Source: Acarospora socialis
Lineage: Eukaryota > Ascomycota > Lecanoromycetes > Acarosporales > Acarosporaceae
Length of the DNA stretch: 64,000 bases
Direction: 5' to 3'
Assembly: GCA_025617375.2 (NCBI GenBank)
Contig: JAMYGW020000002.1
Location: forward strand, 124,001 to 188,000
Position numbers and translations under genes: made by a program. Under the pieces are notes generated by a model that had not been told where the DNA came from, did not search any database, and saw only the letters and a program-made list of their open reading frames with translations. Positions 25,986 to 54,085 of this stretch are shown one piece after another. The number at the start of each line of letters is the position of its first letter. Position 1 is the stretch's first letter.

Positions 25986-27137
25986 ATGCTGCCTATAAAC
26001 TCTATCCTCCTGGCCGTGCTTTTGCGCCCCCTGCTCATTGGTGCTATGCCGGCGCCGGCCCGGTCCAGCATCGACGATAACGCTACTCTTGAGCGTCGCG
26101 ATGTGTACTACAGTTCAGCGCCATTCAGCAGCAATCTCATTAACGTGCCGCATACAACACTGACCAGCCAGGCACCCCTAACCAAAACAGCTTTCGTGAC
26201 AGTCACCGCCACGCGCACCGCGACTGCAGCATATGCGCCACCGCAGGTGAGTAAAGGGAGCTTATCCCTCTTGACCCACCTTCCGACTCTACCCCGTTCA
26301 ACCGTCACCGCTACCGTGAGCGTGACACGGACCGAGCAGCCAACCCGTGCACCGCCGCATGTGATTCCGAGTTACTCCAGTGCGAGCAGCTCTACACCTC
26401 CGCTTCCTAAACTGCCGACAACACCAGCACCACCGCTTCCTAAACTGCCAACAACACAAGCACCACCGCTTCCTAAACTGCCAACAACACAAGCACCACC
26501 GCCACCCCCAGCAAGCAAAGCACCACCGCCACCTCCAGCATCCAAAGCACCGCCACCATCGTCAACATCTGTACCAATACCGCCAGTTCTAGCAACTATG
26601 TTTCCCGGAGCACCACCGCCATCAGTACAAGCACCACCGCCACCCCCAGCAAGCAAAGCACCGCCGCCACCGCCAACAACCTACCCACTACCGCCAATTC
26701 TTGCAACTATGTTTCCATCGGCGCCGCCTAGCAAGAGCTCCTCTAAAGCACCTCCGCCTCCGGCAACCAAAGCACCGCCGCCATCGTCAACAATCTACCC
26801 ACTACCACCAATTCTAGCAACCATGTTCCCGGCACCACCCAGCACAAGCTCTGCTAAACCGCCACCACCAACCAGCAAGAGCTCCTCTAAACCAAGCCCT
26901 ACCACGACGTACCCCACAGACGGTTTGTATCCTCTGCCGACCCAACACTCGAAGCCCCCACCAACCAGCAAGAGCTCATCTAAACCAAGCCCTACCACGA
27001 CTTACCCAACAGACGGTTTGTATCCCCTTCCGACCCATAACTCGAAGCGCACGACCACGTTGGCGCCGGCTCCCGTGTCCACGACTTTTGCGCCCAAGAC
27101 GACACACCATCCCATTACTATTGGACAGCCAGCTTAG
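25986..27137 (+). CDS. Secreted Pro-rich extensin-like repeat protein
   Basis: Single-exon protein of 383 residues. I start it at 25986, where MLPINSILLAVLLRPLLIGA plus MPAPA makes a clean signal peptide; the open frame extends 60 codons further upstream without secretion features. After about residue 130 the chain is almost pure Pro/Ala/Lys/Ser/Thr: PLPKLPTTQA units, APPPPPASK units, three YPLPPILATMFP-type units and a 31-residue unit repeated twice at the end. Such chains are usually heavily O-glycosylated cell-wall or matrix proteins. No GPI signal is obvious; the end (KTTHHPITIGQPA) is polar. No enzymatic domain is present. Function is unknown; a wall or adhesion role is inference. Confidence 0.8.
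   Translation: MLPINSILLAVLLRPLLIGAMPAPARSSIDDNATLERRDVYYSSAPFSSNLINVPHTTLTSQAPLTKTAFVTVTATRTATAAYAPPQVSKGSLSLLTHLPTLPRSTVTATVSVTRTEQPTRAPPHVIPSYSSASSSTPPLPKLPTTPAPPLPKLPTTQAPPLPKLPTTQAPPPPPASKAPPPPPASKAPPPSSTSVPIPPVLATMFPGAPPPSVQAPPPPPASKAPPPPPTTYPLPPILATMFPSAPPSKSSSKAPPPPATKAPPPSSTIYPLPPILATMFPAPPSTSSAKPPPPTSKSSSKPSPTTTYPTDGLYPLPTQHSKPPPTSKSSSKPSPTTTYPTDGLYPLPTHNSKRTTTLAPAPVSTTFAPKTTHHPITIGQPA
26871..27050 (+). repeat. 93-bp coding tandem repeat, two copies
   Basis: Two near-identical 93-bp units begin at 26871 and 26964. Each encodes a 31-residue stretch with SKSSSKPSPTTTYPTDGLYP followed by LPT. Only a few mostly silent differences separate them, so the duplication looks recent. Confidence 0.85.
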
Positions 27138-29422: not shown

Positions 29423-30252
29423 ATTATATTCGCAAGGCTGGAGCCGCATCGTATGTACAAGTTTGTAAAATAACAAGATGCCGCTGGGAACCACTCCAAT
29501 ACATATTCCTTCTAACGTCCTAACTCTTGTTCCAGTTCGATAATAACAGAAAGTGCTGGAAGCGGTGGCATCAAAGGCCCTCCTATGCACATCCCGAAAC
29601 CGCTGCAGCGTGAAATAGAATGGTATTGGGCGATGGCGCTCCAACGTTTGAATTGACTGCTTCCAGGAATAAGGGTTTGCCTACGATTTCACCTTTGTAT
29701 GCCTCCTCCTCGCTCGGGGCAGCAGCCCCTTGAGGCGTGGCCCATGCACCTCTTGACTTGAAGCACCTTCCGATGGCTCGTCTCGGAAGAACAAGAAGCT
29801 GCTTTCAACTGCTTCCGACTAATCCAAAGCTGCAATGTTCATTTCCAGCCGATTGTGAACAGCGGTCTCTTGCTGATCATAGCGGCGTTGTGGATCCCGT
29901 GGTTCTGGGACCAGTTCAGTTAATACACATACGGCGGAGATCATATCCTTGGGCGACCCGAGTCGAGGTGGAACAAGGAAACACTCCTTGGAAGCGGTGG
30001 CGTCAAAGCCACCGTCTGGCTCATACCGGCAGAGAAGAGAAGAGCGCAGCGCTGAGTGCGCTAAGCAAACTAAACCTGCCCAAAAATAATATTAGCTACA
30101 ACTATGAAGGATATACACGATTGAATTCACCTCTTCTCATCTTCGGCCGAGCCGCTGGTTACCTTGAGATTGGCCATGCCGGCCACCTCATCAACCGCCG
30201 CAGGCATAGTTCAGAATCTGACGAAGTGGGCCCTCCGGGTGGTGTGATTCGA
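29423..30252. other. Intergenic, start of accessory repeat-rich zone
   Basis: No supported gene; the frame at 29737-30336 has no domain and runs into the hairpin repeats. A word of about 20 nt (GGAAGCGGTGGC(A/G)TCAAAG) occurs near 29551 and again near 29990, which hints at dispersed repeat fragments already here. Confidence 0.5.
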
Positions 30253-30316
30253 GGGCCGCAGCAAGCCCTCCAGATCGGAAAGCGAGGACTTGCCGCGGCC
30301 CGGGCGGCTGGCGCCC
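30253..30316 (+). repeat. 64-bp double-hairpin element, copy 1
   Basis: A 13-nt arm GGGCCGCAGCAAG (30253-30265) pairs with 30289-30301 apart from one mismatch, across a 23-nt loop. A second small hairpin GGGCG/CGCCC (30302-30306 with 30312-30316) follows directly. Copy 2 lies 117 bp downstream in the same orientation. Confidence 0.8.
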
Positions 30317-30369
30317 TGTTTGAAACAACTAGGTAAATGTTCAACTCGGTCCAGTGTTGTGGGAAGGAA

Positions 30370-30433
30370 GGGCCGCAGCAAGCCCTCCAGATCGGAAAGC
30401 AAGGACTTGCTGCGGCCCGGGCGACCGGCGCCC
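30370..30433 (+). repeat. 64-bp double-hairpin element, copy 2
   Basis: Same length and layout as copy 1 with about four or five substitutions. Here the 13-bp stem (30370-30382 with 30406-30418) is perfect: the position mismatched in copy 1 is a Watson-Crick pair. The small GGGCG/CGCCC hairpin is kept although its loop differs. Confidence 0.82.
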
Positions 30434-30505
30434 TTATCGACCAGATCCTTCAACCTGGTTCACTGGAAACAGGTGACCCAGGAGGTCAAGGGTGATGCAA
30501 TCTCC

Positions 30506-30533
30506 GGCCAGCCTCAGGAAGTCGAGGCTGGCC
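30506..30533. repeat. Perfect 10-bp-stem hairpin
   Basis: GGCCAGCCTC and GAGGCTGGCC are exact inverse copies separated by an 8-nt loop. It is part of the hairpin-dense segment at 30.25-32.46 kb. Confidence 0.85.
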
Positions 30534-30614
30534 GAAGGTTGTATATAGTCCTAGAGCGAGTGAGAGTCCGAAACCGCTCTAACATAACAACCTCCACCGC
30601 CTCAGCTCCAGAAC

Positions 30615-30683
30615 GGGGACACCGCCCGCCAGAAGTACGTATTGGAAGGCGAGACAGGCGGTGTCCCCACTCAAAGGGTGGGC
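30615..30683 (+). repeat. Hairpin-plus-tail element A
   Basis: A perfect 12-bp stem, GGGGACACCGCC (30615-30626) with GGCGGTGTCCCC (30657-30668), is followed five bases later by the tail word AAGGGTGGGC (30674-30683). Element B at 31041-31104 has the same order and a related stem, so the two look like diverged copies of one unit. Confidence 0.78.
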
Positions 30684-30748
30684 TGGCCGGGCCACTGACG
30701 CTCGGCGTGGGCTCCGAGCAGGGAGATTGATCTCTCCGCTGCCAGCCC
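30680..30748 (+). repeat. Nested inverted repeat
   Basis: An outer 8-bp stem, GGGCTGGC (30680-30687) with GCCAGCCC (30741-30748), encloses an inner 6-bp stem, GCTCGG (30700-30705) with CCGAGC (30714-30719). It overlaps the tail of element A, so a branched fold is possible. Confidence 0.6.
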
Positions 30749-31040
30749 TCGCCATAGCGACCCGACCGGCCGTTTCCACCCCACCTCAGAACAACCACCA
30801 CCAAGCTCAACACAACAGCCACACCGACAACCTCCAGCGCTGAACCTCCACCGGCCTATCACTAGCCAATTCCATCTTGAACTTGCCTACTCTTCCCACC
30901 AGCAATGTCTAACACCTTTCCCTCATCCGCCACCTCACTGCCTTCGGAAAAGCGCGTCCAATTCTGGCACAGCCGCGCATATCCAAGACGAAAAACTGAA
31001 GAAGACTTCGTAGCCGATAGGTTGTAGCCACTGGAGTTTG

Positions 31041-31104
31041 GACGGGGAGCACCGCCCAGAGGTCTGTCGTGTTCGGTGGAGGTGCTCCCCGTCCAAGGGT
31101 GGGC
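31041..31104 (+). repeat. Hairpin-plus-tail element B
   Basis: A perfect 13-bp stem, GACGGGGAGCACC (31041-31053) with GGTGCTCCCCGTC (31081-31093), is followed by the tail word AAGGGTGGGC (31095-31104). The layout matches element A, 426 bp upstream. The tail word also occurs inverted at 31307-31316. Confidence 0.78.
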
Positions 31105-31192
31105 CGACTGGTTCCAGTAACGGCAGCGCGCCGCCGGCGGTCTGCTGTAAAAGACCTTCCGGCCAGAGACTAGTTACGCACCAGCTCCGTGG

Positions 31193-31245
31193 TGCTGGCG
31201 GAGGCACGCCAGCTACTAGAGTGCTTGTGCGTACCTCCGCCAGCA
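31193..31245. repeat. Perfect 12-bp-stem hairpin
   Basis: TGCTGGCGGAGG (31193-31204) pairs exactly with CCTCCGCCAGCA (31234-31245) over a 29-nt loop. A shorter 7-bp hairpin GTGGGCT/AGCCCAC follows at 31254-31288. Confidence 0.8.
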
Positions 31246-31316
31246 TGGCTCATGTGGGCTTCCGAGGGGCAGATCCCTCTCAGCCCACAGCCACCGTGAC
31301 CTACTGGCCCACCCTT

Positions 31317-31407
31317 CCCCACCCCTCTTTCTCTTTTTGCCCCGGGCCATGGGCGGAAGCGGGTCAATCGTGTTGTTTGCGGTTGGCCCGGGGCAAGAGG
31401 GGTGGGG
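31317..31407. repeat. Long two-part hairpin, about 24 bp of stem
   Basis: CCCCACCCCTCTT (31317-31329) pairs with 31395-31407, and TTGCCCCGGGCCA (31337-31349) pairs with 31384-31396; the two 3' arms are contiguous. The 5' strand therefore has a small T/C-rich bulge between the arms. This is the longest stem in the segment. Confidence 0.8.
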
Positions 31408-31411
31408 ATTT

Positions 31412-31433
31412 CTGGCGGCAGCACCGCCGCCAG
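31412..31433. repeat. Perfect 8-bp-stem hairpin
   Basis: CTGGCGGC and GCCGCCAG are exact inverse copies with a 6-nt loop, immediately after the long hairpin. Confidence 0.75.
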
Positions 31434-31466
31434 CATTATTGTGCCAGTAGGGGTCCTACCACCAAA

Positions 31467-31500
31467 TCGGCGGCCCACACTCGGCGGCCCACACTCGGCC
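31467..31500 (+). repeat. Twin 14-bp tandem repeat block, copy 1
   Basis: TCGGCGGCCCACAC is present twice in a row (31467-31480 and 31481-31494), followed by TCGGCC. A second block with the same plan but a different unit sequence lies at 32427-32460. Confidence 0.85.
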
Positions 31501-31507
31501 AGCCCCT

Positions 31508-31523
31508 GTGCAGAGATCTGCAC
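31508..31523. repeat. 16-bp near-perfect palindrome
   Basis: GTGCAGAGATCTGCAC has complementary 7-nt arms around a two-base centre. It lies 8 bp after the twin 14-bp repeats. Confidence 0.7.
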
Positions 31524-32161
31524 GTATAAATGACCGGTGACTGGCCAACAAACGCCTTTGGATAAGGACTTGGTGAATGTGAAAACACTAAGAAGAAAAT
31601 CCGGCCTCGTAATCTTTGAGGAGTTTGAGGCCCTCGCGCCGTCCAAAGAGAGAGATGGAAGAGCTATTGCCCGCAGTGAGCGGGCAGAGTCGACTTTCGA
31701 CTATGGTCGTGGTGCTTGGTTTAGCCGTGCTGGTTGCATCGGATGTGGTATACTCTGAGGATCTTGTTGCTGAATGAACTACTTCTTGCTCCATCAATCG
31801 AAGACTTTTGCAAGCTAAAGAAGTACTAGGGTCCTTACGGATCACTTCAACACTATCGCCGGTGGGCGCAACGCCACTAGCTCGGCTCCCAACACTTGGG
31901 CATTCCATTGAGCAGAGCTTCGTCGACCGCGTTGAGGTCGATAGGTTTATGTACTGATCAACGACGAAGGTATGTTCTTGATCCGCAATGTTCGATCTTG
32001 TGACCTGCCGGTTACATGCGGGCAGTCTTGCCCGGTGCACCTGTCGAATCCGCCGCAATGTTGCGGGCTCGACCATGGCTCCCGGTTGAGAACCTCTGAG
32101 AGCGGGTCAGCTTCCGATAGGATGGGGAAGTGAGGAACGCACCATAGTGGCAGGTTGCCGT

Positions 32162-32228
32162 AGGGCTCCACCCTCCCTCCAGCATGGAGAGGGAGGGTAG
32201 AATATGCCCTTTTTGGCATCGGAGCCCT
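32162..32228. repeat. Three-way-junction inverted repeat
   Basis: An outer stem AGGGCTCC (32162-32169) with GGAGCCCT (32221-32228) encloses two inner hairpins. One has a 10-bp stem ACCCTCCCTC/GAGGGAGGGT (32170-32179 with 32189-32198); the other is a 5-bp ATGCC/GGCAT (32204-32208 with 32215-32219). Together they fold into a compact 67-nt clover-like shape. A further hairpin CCAGCAC/GTGCTGG lies at 32239-32256. Confidence 0.72.
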
Positions 32229-32408
32229 AATGGGAAACCCAGCACTAATGTGCTGGTGGGCATACTGCCCTCCGGTCTGACGCCTGGCAAAGCTCTGGCG
32301 TTCTCCTCAACGGAAGTCCTTTTGCGTCGAACTTCAGTATGTGAGCTCGCTGGACATGTCCGAGCCGTGGGCAGCGGCACAGGTTGGCCCTTGCTGACAA
32401 AGGACCAA

Positions 32409-32460
32409 GGGGCGTAACGCCCCAGATCGGCGGTCCACGCTCGGCGGTCCACGCTCGGCT
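32409..32460 (+). repeat. Small hairpin and twin 14-bp repeat block, copy 2
   Basis: A GGGGCG/CGCCCC hairpin (32409-32423) is followed by TCGGCGGTCCACGC twice in a row (32427-32440, 32441-32454) and TCGGCT. The plan matches the block at 31467-31500, but both units here share two substitutions that neither unit there has. Confidence 0.82.
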
Positions 32461-34596
32461 CTGGCTTCTGCCCTCCAAGACAGCGGAGGCGAAATTGGTG
32501 TCTTGAGACTGGAATTGGTGATGGTAGCGGTGGAGGTGTTGAGGGCGTGACGAAGCGGCAGCGCTGCAGTATGAGAGGTTCGACCGTCAGTCTTACCCAA
32601 GCTGATCATACAAGAGCGAGGTTATTACCTGAGTTAAGTTTCAGCAGCTCCCGCTAGAGACTTTTCCAACCTCTTCAAGAGACTCCAGAGAAGCCGACTG
32701 AGGTTTCCAAAGGCGTCCGAAGTTATAACGATTGTGGCGGTGAGGCTGACGTTTGGCCACCTCGTCTTTCTCTTTAGCAGAGGTAACGACGAGTTCATCC
32801 CTGAAGAGAGGTGTAAAGCGGCTGTGGATTCAGACGACGAGAGCAATCACAGAACTATTTAGGGAGATGTCACTGTCAGCGGAGCCCGAGCTCTTTGGCA
32901 CGAGGACGACGAAAACGCTGCCGGAAGCTTTCGCACAAGGATGAGAACTCTACTTGGGTAGGGACGACTCACATTAGACTTGAACACAAGCTGTACATCC
33001 GGCTACGAAGTCTGATGAGGAGGTTCTTCCACAGGACTATTTGAGAGGTTTACTGTCAGTCCAGCTTGAGCCTTGAGCACGACGACGACATGAATGCTGA
33101 GGAAGCTTTTCGCACGACGATGAGAGTATTGCATGGGTAGGAAGGCTTACTACAAGCTTCATCATTCCCTCTAAGCTCAGTCAGCTTGCTGAAGTGCCGT
33201 TGTGGGCTAGCTTTCGAGCGCAAGTTGTTCGTCGTCCTCGATAAAAGCTTCGAAGCTCAGCTACACGTTGCTCAAGTCCACTCCTATCGAGTAGAACTCG
33301 AGTTGGATGAAGGACACCGCTGTTGTGGAGGTGTGTGGCAGGATGAAGAAAAGAAAAGGAGTGAAAGTGTGGGAAGTTCGGAGACATAGTGTGACGGCGA
33401 AATTGGGCTAAGCCCGTCTCAGCCATGGAAATTCACACCATGACGTCCCAACAAAGGCCAATGGTAGTGAAGGTATGTGGCACATGGTACGCTCTTGCTC
33501 CTCAATAGGAAAGAGTAAGGTATTGCTGTTGATAAAGCAGGGGGAAGGATGGTGGAAGGTACGTACCGGGACGGCGAGTTCAGGCTGAAGCACAACATCA
33601 ACCCAGGTACACCGTCCTGAACGCCTGGCACCGCGCACATTACCTCATCTTTTCCTTTCCATTGGGCACAAAACACGTCTTTCATCTCAGTGAGTATGAG
33701 TGAATGCTCCTACCAATTTCGGGGCGTACTGTGACGGCGAAATCACGCTGAAGGTCTGGCTCTCAGAGTGCAAGCAGTCTAGGTACGTGAGACAACGCTT
33801 GCAGCTTCATGCCTCACTCAAATCTCTGATATCTCTCCTATCTACACTACATTGCATCCCTTCACCCTTCCTACCCTGTGTTTCCAGGAGCAGCACTGGT
33901 AGGGCAGAGACAGGTCTATTGCATCGAAGGGAAGTCTCTACGCTTGGCACCGGCGTAAGTAGAGACGATAGGGGGCAATGTGAGTGAGACATAATTTACA
34001 CTTTGTGGCAGGCGCGAGGATAGATTAGGGGCGAGGGGTACGTTACGTTGACGCTACGTTACGTTGGAGCTATACAGGGTGTGGCAAGCTCTCGATTCTA
34101 CTCGAGTGAGCTGAGGCTCTCACGGTCAGTAAGCTGGGTACGAGTACTGAGACGTGTGAGGTTTGTAGGCCTCAAGCAGGGTGGTCTGAACAGGTGGTAA
34201 AGGCCCGACGCCTACACCCTCTAAAATACTCGATTGAATGGCAACAGCGAGGGCAACATTGCTATGATCTGTGATTGAAAACTCTATCTTCAATTGTAAT
34301 CGTCTAGCTACTTGAAGAAGCAAAGCACCTATCTAAGTGAAGCTCCCAAAGCCGACGAAGTCCGATGATTGCGTAATATCCTCATTCACTGGGAGGGCTA
34401 CCCACTCCCTAAGGACAGCCCACAATCTTCACTTCACCGCCTTCAACTCAAAGCTAATCTCGTTACCCACACTGTCGACCTCAAAACCATCTGCACACTC
34501 AACAAGTTCCTTGAACTGTCTCTGCACCCGTAAAAATCGTTGTCTTTCGTCTGAACCGTCTCGTCTGGTAGGGTTAAAGCTAGAAACTCGAAGACC
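32461..34596. other. Accessory intergenic stretch with degenerate repeats
   Basis: No gene supported. The stretch holds a degenerate duplication at 32848-33165 and a word GTGACGGCGAAAT at about 33391 and 33731. Frames on both strands are short and domain-free. Confidence 0.55.
32848..33165. repeat. Degenerate tandem duplication, about 182-bp period
   Basis: CACAGAACTATTT at 32848 recurs as CACAGGACTATTT at 33030. ACTGTCAG, GGAAGCTTTTCGCAC-like and GATGAGA words follow in the same order in both copies, ending with TGGGTAGG. Identity is moderate, so this is an old duplication, perhaps the decayed remains of a coding repeat. Confidence 0.6.
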
Positions 34597-36142
34597 ATGG
34601 CAAGCTTGAGAGGAAATCAGACACCGGCGATTGCGATCCAAACACCAGCAGAGACCAGTAACTCAGAGACTATCACGCATACACAGCAAGCTCCTATTGA
34701 GCAAGCGAGAGTCACTGACGAGCAAGGAGTTGTTGCCGTCGACGCCAACGTAGATGATACCTCTCCTGAGGCGACTAAAGGGTTCAACGAGGAAACGATC
34801 GAAGGCATTGCTCAAGATATCGAGGCAGAATCAACGAAAGATAATCAAGGCTTCAACAAGGATACGATTGAGGGCATTACCCAAGAAAACGAGGTAAAAT
34901 CAACGAGAGATAGTTCAAGCTTCAACGAGGAAACGACTGAGGGCCTTACCCAAGACAACGGGGCCGAATCAACGAGAGACAATCAAGGTTTGGTAAGTTC
35001 ATCTACTCCATAGAGTTAATTAACAACGTTCTGACCCTTCAGATTGTGGATCGAGTTACCGACGTCAATTCGAGCTCTGTGTCCTCCGGTCCATCTTTGG
35101 GTACAAACACAGAACCCCTTCAGACCGAGCCGGTGGAGGATAATCAAATGGAGGTAAGCTCATCCGCACTCTCAAACCTCCCAGCAGCGTCCCGACTCTT
35201 TAGGTCATCGATCGAGTTACTGATGTTCCTCAGCGCTCTGTGTCCTCAGCTTCGTCATTTAGTACAGATCACGAAGCCAGTGGGACCGAGCCTGTCGTGA
35301 ATGTCTTGAACTGGATAGACCACGCTCCGAACCGACGCACTCGCGGCATAAGATCCTCCTCCTGGCAGCATGGATACCGTGCCGGAATGAGAGCTACTAT
35401 GAGTGCGGTCTCGGACTATGGTGTTGTTGCCGACGCCAACCTATTACCGCAGCCTTTATTTAGTAACTCGCCACCAGCGTTGCATCGAGGCCGCCGTACT
35501 GAGTCAGTCAGTGGACAAGTCGATGTGGTTCGAAGGGAGACCCCTCAAGAGCAAAGAGGAACTTCAAACAGAGTATCCGAGCTTGACACGAGCGCCGCGG
35601 AAAATTCAGCTAGCGTCACTCCAACTCGTGTGCCTCCCTCCTTTGTTCTGTTGACCACCACACCGGGCAGGCCCCGTGTCACGTCAATTCTTGCGGCCCG
35701 CAGTCCAGCTCTTGCAGGACCCACCGCCTCACCCTCCGCCCCCCTCGTCGCCACGAACGAGAATCTCTATGTGAGGCCCTCCAGATCATCCATGATGGAG
35801 TACGCCAAAGCCACCGAAGATGTCAATGACATGAAGAGGTTCGGCGACGAGGGGGGAGAGGATGAGGTGGTTCCTGGTGGGTTGATGCGGGGCTCGCCGG
35901 TGGGGGGATACCCCAAGAGGCGCTCCAGCGTCCTGAGGAGGGTGAACACAGGGCGAAGAGAGAGGGAGAGCGCTCTATACCAGAGCAGCTTGACCAAAGC
36001 TGTGGAGGAGGAGAATCGGGGGAGGATGTCGGAGATCATGGAGACCCTCCGGACAGGTGCGGAGAGAAGTGGGGGTGGTATCAGAAAGGTAACGACAGAC
36101 TCTGAAGATACCGCACTGAGTATGAAGCTGACAGACTCATAG
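34597..36142 (+). CDS. Orphan protein with tandem repeats and a duplicated exon
   Basis: Three exons, 34597-34992, 35043-35153 and 35204-36142, give 481 residues. No signal peptide, membrane segment or known domain was seen. Exon 1 carries three 23-residue repeats of the type GFNEETIEGIAQDIEAESTK. Exon 2 (37 residues, starting IVDRVTDV) and the start of exon 3 (VIDRVTDVPQRSVSS) are copies of each other. Both introns are exactly 50 nt, phase 0 and similar to each other. The C-terminal 300 residues are Ser/Arg/Glu-rich and mostly disordered in composition, ending in a basic-acidic helix-like segment (RRERESALYQSSLTKAVEEE). The model rests on strong splice sites and repeat continuity across introns, not on homology. 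Nothing in the neighbourhood indicates its role. Confidence 0.72.
34780..34986 (+). repeat. 69-bp coding tandem repeat, three copies
   Basis: Units at 34780-34848, 34849-34917 and 34918-34986, each 23 codons, reading (G/S)FN(E/K)(E/D)T(I/T)EG. They end exactly six bases before the exon 1 donor, so the repeat array abuts the duplicated intron-exon unit. Confidence 0.88.
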
Positions 36143-51949: not shown

Positions 51950-54085
51950 ATGCCATACTCCTTCGATATGTCTAGGATGGAGCTTCTGAAGCCTTTCAAT
52001 CAGATCAGACTATCCTCAAGCGACATCCCACTGTTCGCGATATGTGTGCTCATGGTATACACCGTCTACGGTGCCATCTACCGTCTTTTCCTGAGCCCTC
52101 TCGCGAAGGTTCCAGGACCAAGATTAGCTGCCTTGACAGACTTCTACGAGTGGTATTATGATACCATCAAACGAGGACGATATACCTGGAAGATCGCTGA
52201 GTTGCACAAGCAATACGGTATCCGAGCAGACCTCCCCGTTAACCCTTTGATACACTACGAGACCTTGGCTGATAGCGATCTCCGTGCAGGCCCTATCGTT
52301 CGGATCAACCCATGGGCCGTTCACATCCATGACCCAGATTTCATCGATGAAGTCTACCCAGGGGCAGGTAGGAAGGTCGATAAACCCTCACGATATGCCA
52401 ACATGTTCGGCATCAGTGTAGCTGCCTTCGCGACGGATTTGCATGAGAAGCACCGTGTTCGACGAGGATTGCTCAACTCGTTCTTCTCCAAGCGGTCCAT
52501 CGCCAAGTTAGAGCCCGTCATACAGTCTGTCGTGGACAAGCTCTGCGATCGACTCGAAGGCTTTCGGAAGAGTGGAGAGCCACTCAATCTGCGGAACGCA
52601 TACATGGCGCTCGGGACAGATGTCATCAACCAATACTGCTTCTCTGCTTCCGAATATTATCTGGATGAGCCGGATTTCCATCCGACATTGTGTGTAGCAT
52701 CTCTGCTTCCTTTCATGTCCGCATCGAATGACGGTGGCCTTGCGATCTAGGTACCAGGCCTTGATTGAGGCTTCGGAGGGTACAGCCAGTAAGGCGATTG
52801 CTCTTTACCCGGATAAGCTCATCAGTTGTTTACACGGACAGATTTCCACTTGTTTCCATGGCTGTTTCCAATCCTTAATTCTTTTCCGGTATACACCCCA
52901 ATACCCACACAAGGAACGATGGGATATTGACGCCGGAGAAGCACTGGTTCATGAAAGTCACCAATCCGAAGGCATACAATATCATTGAAATGCTGAACGT
53001 AAGTCTATACGTTTCTGATAATTCAGCTATGCAACTCCAACATATCTACGCGGGAAGTTGCTTCGCGCTTCGGATACGCTTCACCTGCTCGTTGGGATAG
53101 AACTGCACAAAGAATCTCGTTTTAGTTTCTAGGCTGCCTCTCAGTCCCGAGTCTCCCAGTTCGCAGTTAACAAACCTCTATAGATACGCGAAGCGCAGAT
53201 CCGAGACCTAATGGCTGAAGGAGAAGAAGCTCGGAACAAAGCGGAGTGAGCAAGCCTTATCAGCCACCTAGCACGGCAGAAAACCCCCACCGAGTGACTG
53301 ACTCTCTCCGGCCCAGACACACCACAATCTTTCATTACCTGCTCGACGAGGAAGTGCCCCCGCAGGAACGCACCCTCTTCAGACTCGGGCAAGAAGCCAT
53401 CAGCTTGATCGGAGCGGGCGGCATCACGACGCAGCATACGCTGCAGACACTAACGTACCACATCCTCGCCAACCCGCCGGTGCTCGCCAAGCTCATGGGC
53501 GAACTCAAACGAGCGATGCCGGACCCCAACGTCTCCGCCCCGCTCCAGCAGCTCGAACACCTCCCTTACCTCTCCGCCGTCATCTCCGAAGGGCTGCGTG
53601 TGGGCTACGGCATCTCGCACCGCATGGAACGCTCCTTCCCCGACCGCGCCCTCAAGTACGGCGACCACGTCATCCCGCCCAACACTTCCGTCTCCATGAC
53701 CACCATGCTCATCCACGACGACCCGACCATCTTCCCCGAGCCACGCAAATTCATCCCTGAGCGCTGGCTCGACTCAGCGAAACAAGACTCTCTCCCCACT
53801 CCCGACAACAACGACCGCGAGAAGCCTCTACAACAACAATCCAATGCTCAGCGACTAAATAAATACTTGCTCTCCTTCAGCCGCGGCTCGCGCGCCTGCG
53901 TCGGCCTCAACCTCGCCCAGGCCGAATTGCACTTGGCGCTCGCGAACATTTTCCGCAAGTTCGACTTGGAGCTGTTCGAGGTGGTCCGGGAGAGGGATGT
54001 TGATGTGAAGCATGATTTCTTCAATCCCGCCCCGGCGAAGGAGTCGGTGGGGTTGAGGGTTAGGGTTGTGGGGCGGGTGGCGTGA
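51950..54085 (+). CDS. Cytochrome P450 monooxygenase
   Basis: Seven exons, 51950-52217, 52290-52689, 52751-52788, 52842-52888, 52939-52998, 53184-53245 and 53317-54085, give 547 residues. An N-terminal hydrophobic anchor (IPLFAICVLMVYTVYGAIYR) and the KVPGPRLAALTDFYEWYY hinge indicate an ER-bound microsomal enzyme. Later motifs are the I-helix GAGGITTQ, the ExxR in VISEGLRVG, FIPERW, and the haem-ligand loop FSRGSRACVGLNLA with Cys at about residue 486. The small exons 3-5 are recovered from family sequence: YQALIEASEGTAS, then NFHLFPWLFPILNSFP, then KHWFMKVTNPKAYNIIEML. It resembles benzoate-hydroxylase/trichodiene-oxygenase-like fungal P450s; the substrate is unknown and no cluster partners are visible. 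The I-helix has Ile where an acidic residue is common. Intron 1 is stop-free and 72 nt. Confidence 0.92.

Follow-up and report, generated by a model that had tools for sequence, protein, structure and literature searches.

A segment of the Acarospora socialis genome that is rich in long stems (positions 30253-32460) appears, with a probability of roughly 0.4, to be a hairpin-RNA locus for which a single PAK-type kinase gene, putatively CLA4-like by our own label, supplied part of the sequence. The abundance of stems is real and unusual, and an array of structured non-coding RNA, as considered in the original prediction, is compatible with the sequence and is the leading reading. As far as the sequence goes, the locus is single-copy and intergenic, with no sign of mobility. 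All positions refer to the window, i.e., the whole stretch of 64,000 nucleotides analyzed here, which corresponds to positions 124001-188000 of contig C2 in a genome of 31,147,409 bases in 38 contigs.

Profile matches in the window to the UTP25, JmjC, exportin-1-like and TFIID-18kDa domains identify it as eukaryotic nuclear DNA. The hairpin segment lies within an interval without recognized domains, flanked on the left by a FAM210-like gene (28.5-29.4 kb) and on the right by undescribed ORFs from about 34.6 kb; further right, an EamA-transporter gene is located at 37.2-38.4 kb. The claim that the segment contains no gene agrees with the lack of Pfam, tRNA and gathering-score Rfam matches in it. 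Specifically, a coding or viral gene was rejected given that none of the four ORFs in or overlapping the segment has a Pfam match at E <= 0.1; for one of these, taken as a 171-aa stop-to-stop frame, none of 44 candidate proteins matched at E <= 1. No tRNA was found in the segment, and Rfam yielded just four matches at E 0.2-0.85. A viral or prokaryotic origin was rejected by a narrow test, in which one exact pattern searched in viral contigs and another searched in genome contigs gave 0 matches each. Telomerase RNA, considered for its size, was rejected as well because the segment contains no telomere template of 7 or more nt; none of six TTAGGG-type 7-mers occurs on either strand of 30230-32480, TTAGGG telomeres being assumed. 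A search for Pol III boxes and T runs at the locus gave nothing convincing.

Several other repeats were observed in the window. Just to the right of the hairpin segment, a degenerate repetition (32848/33030) is 71% alike over 115 columns, and a shorter common motif recurs at 33374, 33562 and 33725; the repetition occupies 32848-33760, with spacings of roughly 160-190 bp. A 14-bp perfect inverted repeat (31003-31016/33000-33013) has one arm in the segment and the other outside it, almost 2 kb apart. Tandem repeats are present in an undescribed open frame (34778-34988; 69 bp, 3.1 copies) and in a 443-aa ORF without a Pfam match (26395-27057; 27, 33 and 93 bp). At 54056-54067, overlapping 7-mer matches give the telomere-like 12-nt sequence AGGGTTAGGGTT, which adjoins the JmjC gene.

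The hairpins and motifs of the segment are as follows.

30253..30301, first copy of hairpin A, with 18 bp in the fold of the minus-strand RNA, two of them G-U
30302..30316, first copy of the small hairpin B, with a stem of 5 bp
30370..30418, second copy of hairpin A, two stem pairs unlike those of the first, which remain standard pairs only on the minus strand
30419..30433, second copy of the small hairpin B
30495..30544, hairpin with 21-nt arms of 86% complementarity
30611..30672, hairpin Y, with 12 bp in its perfect core and 20 bp in the fold of the minus-strand RNA
30676..30785, branched structure adjoining hairpin Y
31038..31096, hairpin X, arms of 19 nt with 95% complementarity, probably paralogous to Y
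31097..31314, closing stem of 9 bp (31097-31105/31306-31314) that encloses a multibranch of hairpins
31193..31245, hairpin with 17-nt arms 94% complementary
31316..31408, longest hairpin, paired over 14 + 13 bp and bulged on one side
31412..31433, 8-bp hairpin
31467..31499, 14-bp motif in tandem, pair 1
32161..32229, nested hairpin with a 9-bp outer stem and a 10-13-nt inner stem
32427..32459, 14-bp motif in tandem, pair 2

The hairpin at 31316-31408 has a continuous 25-nt 3' arm, whereas its paired 5' arm is split by the one-sided bulge; this is the stem that had been described as being of about 24 bp.

Perfect stems with loops of 3-80 nt were counted over 30253-32460 and compared with 200 dinucleotide shuffles. 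The locus contains 15 stems of at least 8 bp (shuffle mean 2.4, maximum 8), 9 of at least 9 bp (0.66, maximum 3), 8 of at least 10 bp (0.18, maximum 2) and 6 of at least 12 bp (0.01, maximum 1). An excess over shuffled sequence, which had been named beforehand as a test, is therefore present at all four of these thresholds. As a control from the same genome, we used 401 overlapping segments of 2208 bp, drawn from 20 stretches of 10 kb and from positions 1-29000 and 33501-64000 of the window. The maximum in any control segment was 1 for stems of at least 12 bp, 2 for at least 11 bp (7 at the locus) and 5 for at least 10 bp; at 9 bp or more, one of the 401 segments ties with the locus (9), and at 8 bp or more, higher counts than at the locus occur in at least two control stretches (17 and 16 stems; L022 and L023, 27-28% GC). 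Thus, it is the long stems that are exceptional, not the counts of short ones, and it is the former, with 6 stems of at least 12 bp against at most 1 in the controls, that bear out the description of the segment as hairpin-dense. As a separate observation on the sampled stretches, 8 of the 20 (L009, L010, L015, L016, L017, L018, L022 and L023) contain 2-kb blocks at 35% GC or less, compared to about 51% elsewhere; the genome is thus of two-part composition, presumably left by repeat-induced point mutation.

Folding z-scores, computed over 150-nt windows against 60 shuffles per window, fall to between -3 and -6.4 at 30.15-30.7, 31.0-31.3 and 32.1-32.2 kb, and range from +0.6 to -2.9 between 31.35 and 32.03 kb; outside the segment, a single window (33300) has z of -3.8, on one strand. 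Structure is weak in the middle of the segment (about 31500-32130).

Some of the hairpins are clearly related to each other, as originally noted. The two-hairpin unit formed by A and B occurs twice (30239-30317/30356-30434, 87% identity), and a second related pair, also with 87% identity, is found at 31462-31499/32422-32459; the tandem 14-mers (two pairs) are identical within a site and differ between sites. Hairpins X and Y are probably paralogous. Over the flank and the first arm, their score was reached by 1 of 5000 mononucleotide shuffles (0.0002), and in a minus-strand scan of the 64 kb, in steps of 7, Y was the sole non-self place among the best eight listed. For the second arm by itself, the corresponding value is 0.0016, and in its own scan this arm of Y is inconspicuous.

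The relatedness is local. In DNA searches of the 31.1-Mb genome, queries of 4101, 501, 242 and 70 bases matched their own locus, with no second copy elsewhere; the 4101-base query alone also matched the kinase gene. These searches were word-filtered and accordingly give lower bounds, such that strongly diverged copies may escape; short shared pieces elsewhere could be missed as well, given that the word-filtered search missed an 18-20-nt kinase match that a pattern search found. The motif TCGGCGGYCCACRCTCGGC (19 nt, built on the 14-mer) has, at up to 2 mismatches genome-wide, four copies here and two 2-mismatch matches elsewhere, which is about the chance expectation by our estimate. A covariance model of the A+B unit, run on the window only, recovered the two copies (on both strands), along with weak extra matches at hairpin Y (E 0.05) and at 32154-32218 (E 1.1). 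The genome-wide, word-filtered search for hairpin copies that had been called for reveals the locus alone, apart from the kinase gene, and lends no support to a mobile hairpin family gathered at one site.

The match on contig C8 is the coding sequence of a PAK-type kinase, labeled as such from its kinase and PF00786 domains, the latter of which we take to be the p21-binding domain, and from homologues named 'p21-activated kinase 1'. The homologues include those of Oleoguttula, Gyalolechia, Caloplaca and Trizodia, all of which are ascomycetes; together with gene density and genome size, they point to a fungal host. The following matches to this gene were found at the locus.

31704..31779, minus strand (kinase sense), kinase coding fragment, 88% over 76 bp, E = 4.6e-19
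30276..30293, plus strand, kinase piece 1a, 18/18 nt, in the first copy of hairpin A, spanning the loop plus 9 nt of an arm
30393..30412, plus strand, kinase piece 1b, 19/20 nt, in the second copy of hairpin A, spanning the loop plus 11 nt of an arm
31064..31082, plus strand, kinase piece 2, 18/19 nt, in hairpin X, spanning the loop plus 5 nt of an arm
31417-31448, opposite orientation, kinase match of 78%, GC-triplet-rich and less certain, overlapping the hairpin at 31412..31433

All these matches except 31417-31448 have one orientation, in which the plus strand is antisense to the mRNA of the kinase. Pieces of 18-20 nt are thus present in three hairpins (A twice and X), and the pieces are out of order at the locus relative to the gene. 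The 76-bp fragment lies outside any hairpin.

Several lines of evidence link the short pieces to the kinase gene. Genome-wide, a 20-nt probe with two degenerate positions matched nothing but the kinase gene and both A hairpins at 0 mismatches, and a 19-nt probe matched only hairpin X and the kinase gene at 0-1 mismatch; each has one further place at 2 mismatches. With the 76-bp fragment excluded, three separate places have kinase matches with scores of at least 17; among 3000 dinucleotide shuffles of the gene, three such places were reached by none and two by 1. Because 31417-31448 is GC-triplet-rich, we place the weight on the other two. In 39 real control segments, there are 3 matches at this score in all, at most 1 in each; single matches with a score of at least 18 were found in 0 of the 39 real segments, 1 of 37 reversed ones and 4 in 100 shuffles. 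A kinase profile detected no other remnant above shuffles besides the 76-bp fragment, and genome probes for donors of three other loops found none within 3 mismatches, bar one 3-mismatch match. In hairpin A, the kinase piece comprises the loop together with 9-11 nt of the arm, and the opposite arm is its complement, which is the layout that inverted copying would give; in hairpin X, the overlap with the arm is just 5 nt.

On the minus strand, the 76-bp fragment stays in the kinase frame over 25 codons before a stop (translation: FIQQQDPQSIPHPMQPARLNQAPRP). It has 9 nucleotide differences from the host gene, 5 of them synonymous by our own count, and carries I, Q, S and M at positions occupied in the host kinase by V, E, N and T, respectively. 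Among the eight kinase homologues compared, P0124 has I, Q and S, whereas P0121 and P0122, which are closer to the host, have E and N; the N is also found in P0123, P0126, P0127 and P0128. The presence of fragment-like residues in P0124 and of host-like ones in P0121 and P0122 suggests that the capture may predate the split of the host from the latter two, provided that descent was vertical and bearing in mind that few residues are involved.

The strand on which the stems pair was also considered. With strand-neutral stem finding, 8 wobble mismatches are of the minus type and 4 of the plus type (p = 0.39), and all four one-sided stem changes between copies (two between A1 and A2, two between X and Y) pair on the minus strand only (p = 0.125). 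By our own reading of the listed pairs, X and Y further differ by one two-sided change and one paired insertion; in addition, a pair present in Y is broken in X. The gain from wobble pairs is larger on the minus strand in 6 of nine hairpins and on the plus strand in the other 3 (30493-30546, 31314-31410 and, slightly, 31036-31098), one of them by just 0.6 kcal/mol. A loop-versus-stem test on the A copies (p = 0.064) was set aside; one change counted as loop folds into the stem. The persistence of the stems in diverged paralogues suggests maintenance by selection or by DNA-level repair.

The RNAi machinery that a precursor locus of hpRNA or milRNA would require is encoded in the genome at the level of domains, namely 7 Piwi-domain matches at 4 places, 6 of them over the cut-off, and 3 Dicer-dimer matches at 3 places, all over the cut-off, so that small-RNA processing is possible. 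These are domains rather than assembled genes, and one main Piwi match and one Dicer match each contain an in-frame stop, perhaps owing to an intron. The locus is complementary to a host gene, the kinase gene, in short pieces only. With regard to the length of about 20 bp or more that Dicer needs, the arms are of 17-21 nt, and the longest, of 25 nt, lies opposite a bulge; stems of 12-21 bp are short for Dicer.

We propose a scenario in three steps. The stems would have been created by short inverted copying, i.e., replication template switching, of resident sequence, the kinase pieces included. The locus would then be transcribed, with the stems kept for their work as RNA, to which we give about even odds. 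The likeliest use would be as a Dicer substrate that yields small RNAs, with the kinase mRNA as an ancestral or present target; this step is the least certain. In a bolder and rather improbable version, the hairpins born from short inverted copies of the CLA4-like kinase would act back on it via their loops or small RNAs, the pieces being kept too short for repeat-induced mutation.

Next in our ranking after the hairpin-RNA locus comes a serious, though less probable, neutral alternative, a template-switching hotspot in a GC-rich intergenic stretch, in which a DNA-level process continually makes and repairs short palindromes and which has also caught gene fragments, with no RNA function. A single template switch, as described in PMC8794818, can make a perfect stem, and the process is able to help maintain stems as well; it would account for the perfect stems, for the kinase loop-and-arm piece beside its complement and for the tandem 14-mers that are identical within each site. 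The template-switch-born hairpins treated there are known from reconstructed histories of RNA genes, whereas here such an origin is proposed from one donor gene. However, none of the 401 control segments has a comparable number of stems of at least 10 bp, and the G-U pairs and the one-sided changes kept as wobbles are unexpected from perfect inverted copying. It is unlikely that the segment encodes a single large non-coding RNA, multibranched in structure, that would serve an architectural purpose or a ribonucleoprotein rather than RNAi and for which the kinase pieces were incidental raw material. Such an RNA is suggested by the helices through 31038-31433, which are consecutive with gaps of 0-3 nt and include a closed multibranch (31097..31314) directly adjoining hairpin X and the helix 31316-31408, but the segment has no Rfam match at gathering score and is interrupted by its weakly structured middle.

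We consider it still less probable that a duplicated gene, or an element with captured kinase pieces, has decayed here to a relic. The disorder of the pieces and the stop that ends the frame of the 76-bp fragment would fit such a relic, but we would not expect free decay to leave islands of 95-100% identity beside unalignable sequence, together with intact stems. Least probable of all, and by our estimate very improbable, are mobile double-hairpin elements like those of fungal mitochondria that are now nuclear. The tandem pair of the two-hairpin unit (30253-30433) is reminiscent of the double-hairpin elements of Allomyces mitochondrial DNA, which are described, next to other repetitive hairpin-forming elements, in PMC2800124; unlike these, the locus is nuclear, not dispersed and shows no evidence of mobility. 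Neither the genome, which yielded no further copy in the word-filtered searches, nor the A+B model, with just weak extra matches in the window, favors such elements.

The proposed hairpin-RNA locus has partial counterparts in other systems. In plants, miRNA genes can arise with a stem born from an inverted copy of a fragment of the target gene. The locus resembles these in that a stem appears to come from an inverted gene-fragment copy, and differs in being fungal, in having pieces of only about 20 nt and in comprising several hairpins. The hpRNA loci of Drosophila (PMC10317233) contain inverted repeats with fragments of protein-coding genes, e.g., about 200 bp of homology to a Tapas exon, and thus share with our locus inverted repeats that carry fragments of a gene located elsewhere. 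Fungal mi/milRNAs are encoded by stem-loop loci, some intergenic, and many of the reported ones derive from coding sequence (PMC9757828, whose main text does not contain the words 'cluster' and 'polycistronic'); the likeness here is that of intergenic stem-loops in a fungus. In Drosophila, the homology is long and siRNAs have been demonstrated, whereas our locus has many stems of 12-21 bp and, in the hairpins, pieces of 18-20 nt. Within the partial coverage of the literature, no published hairpin-cluster locus in fungal intergenic DNA was found by title and beginning of abstract, and no work on an antisense long non-coding RNA of Cla4 in filamentous fungi.

If the locus is an RNA gene, its hairpins have been caught with the donor gene still recognizable, so that related species would allow the birth of hairpin RNAs to be tested; a trans-acting connection with a conserved kinase would also be suggested. 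If it is neutral, the locus would be a compact natural record of template-switch mutation.
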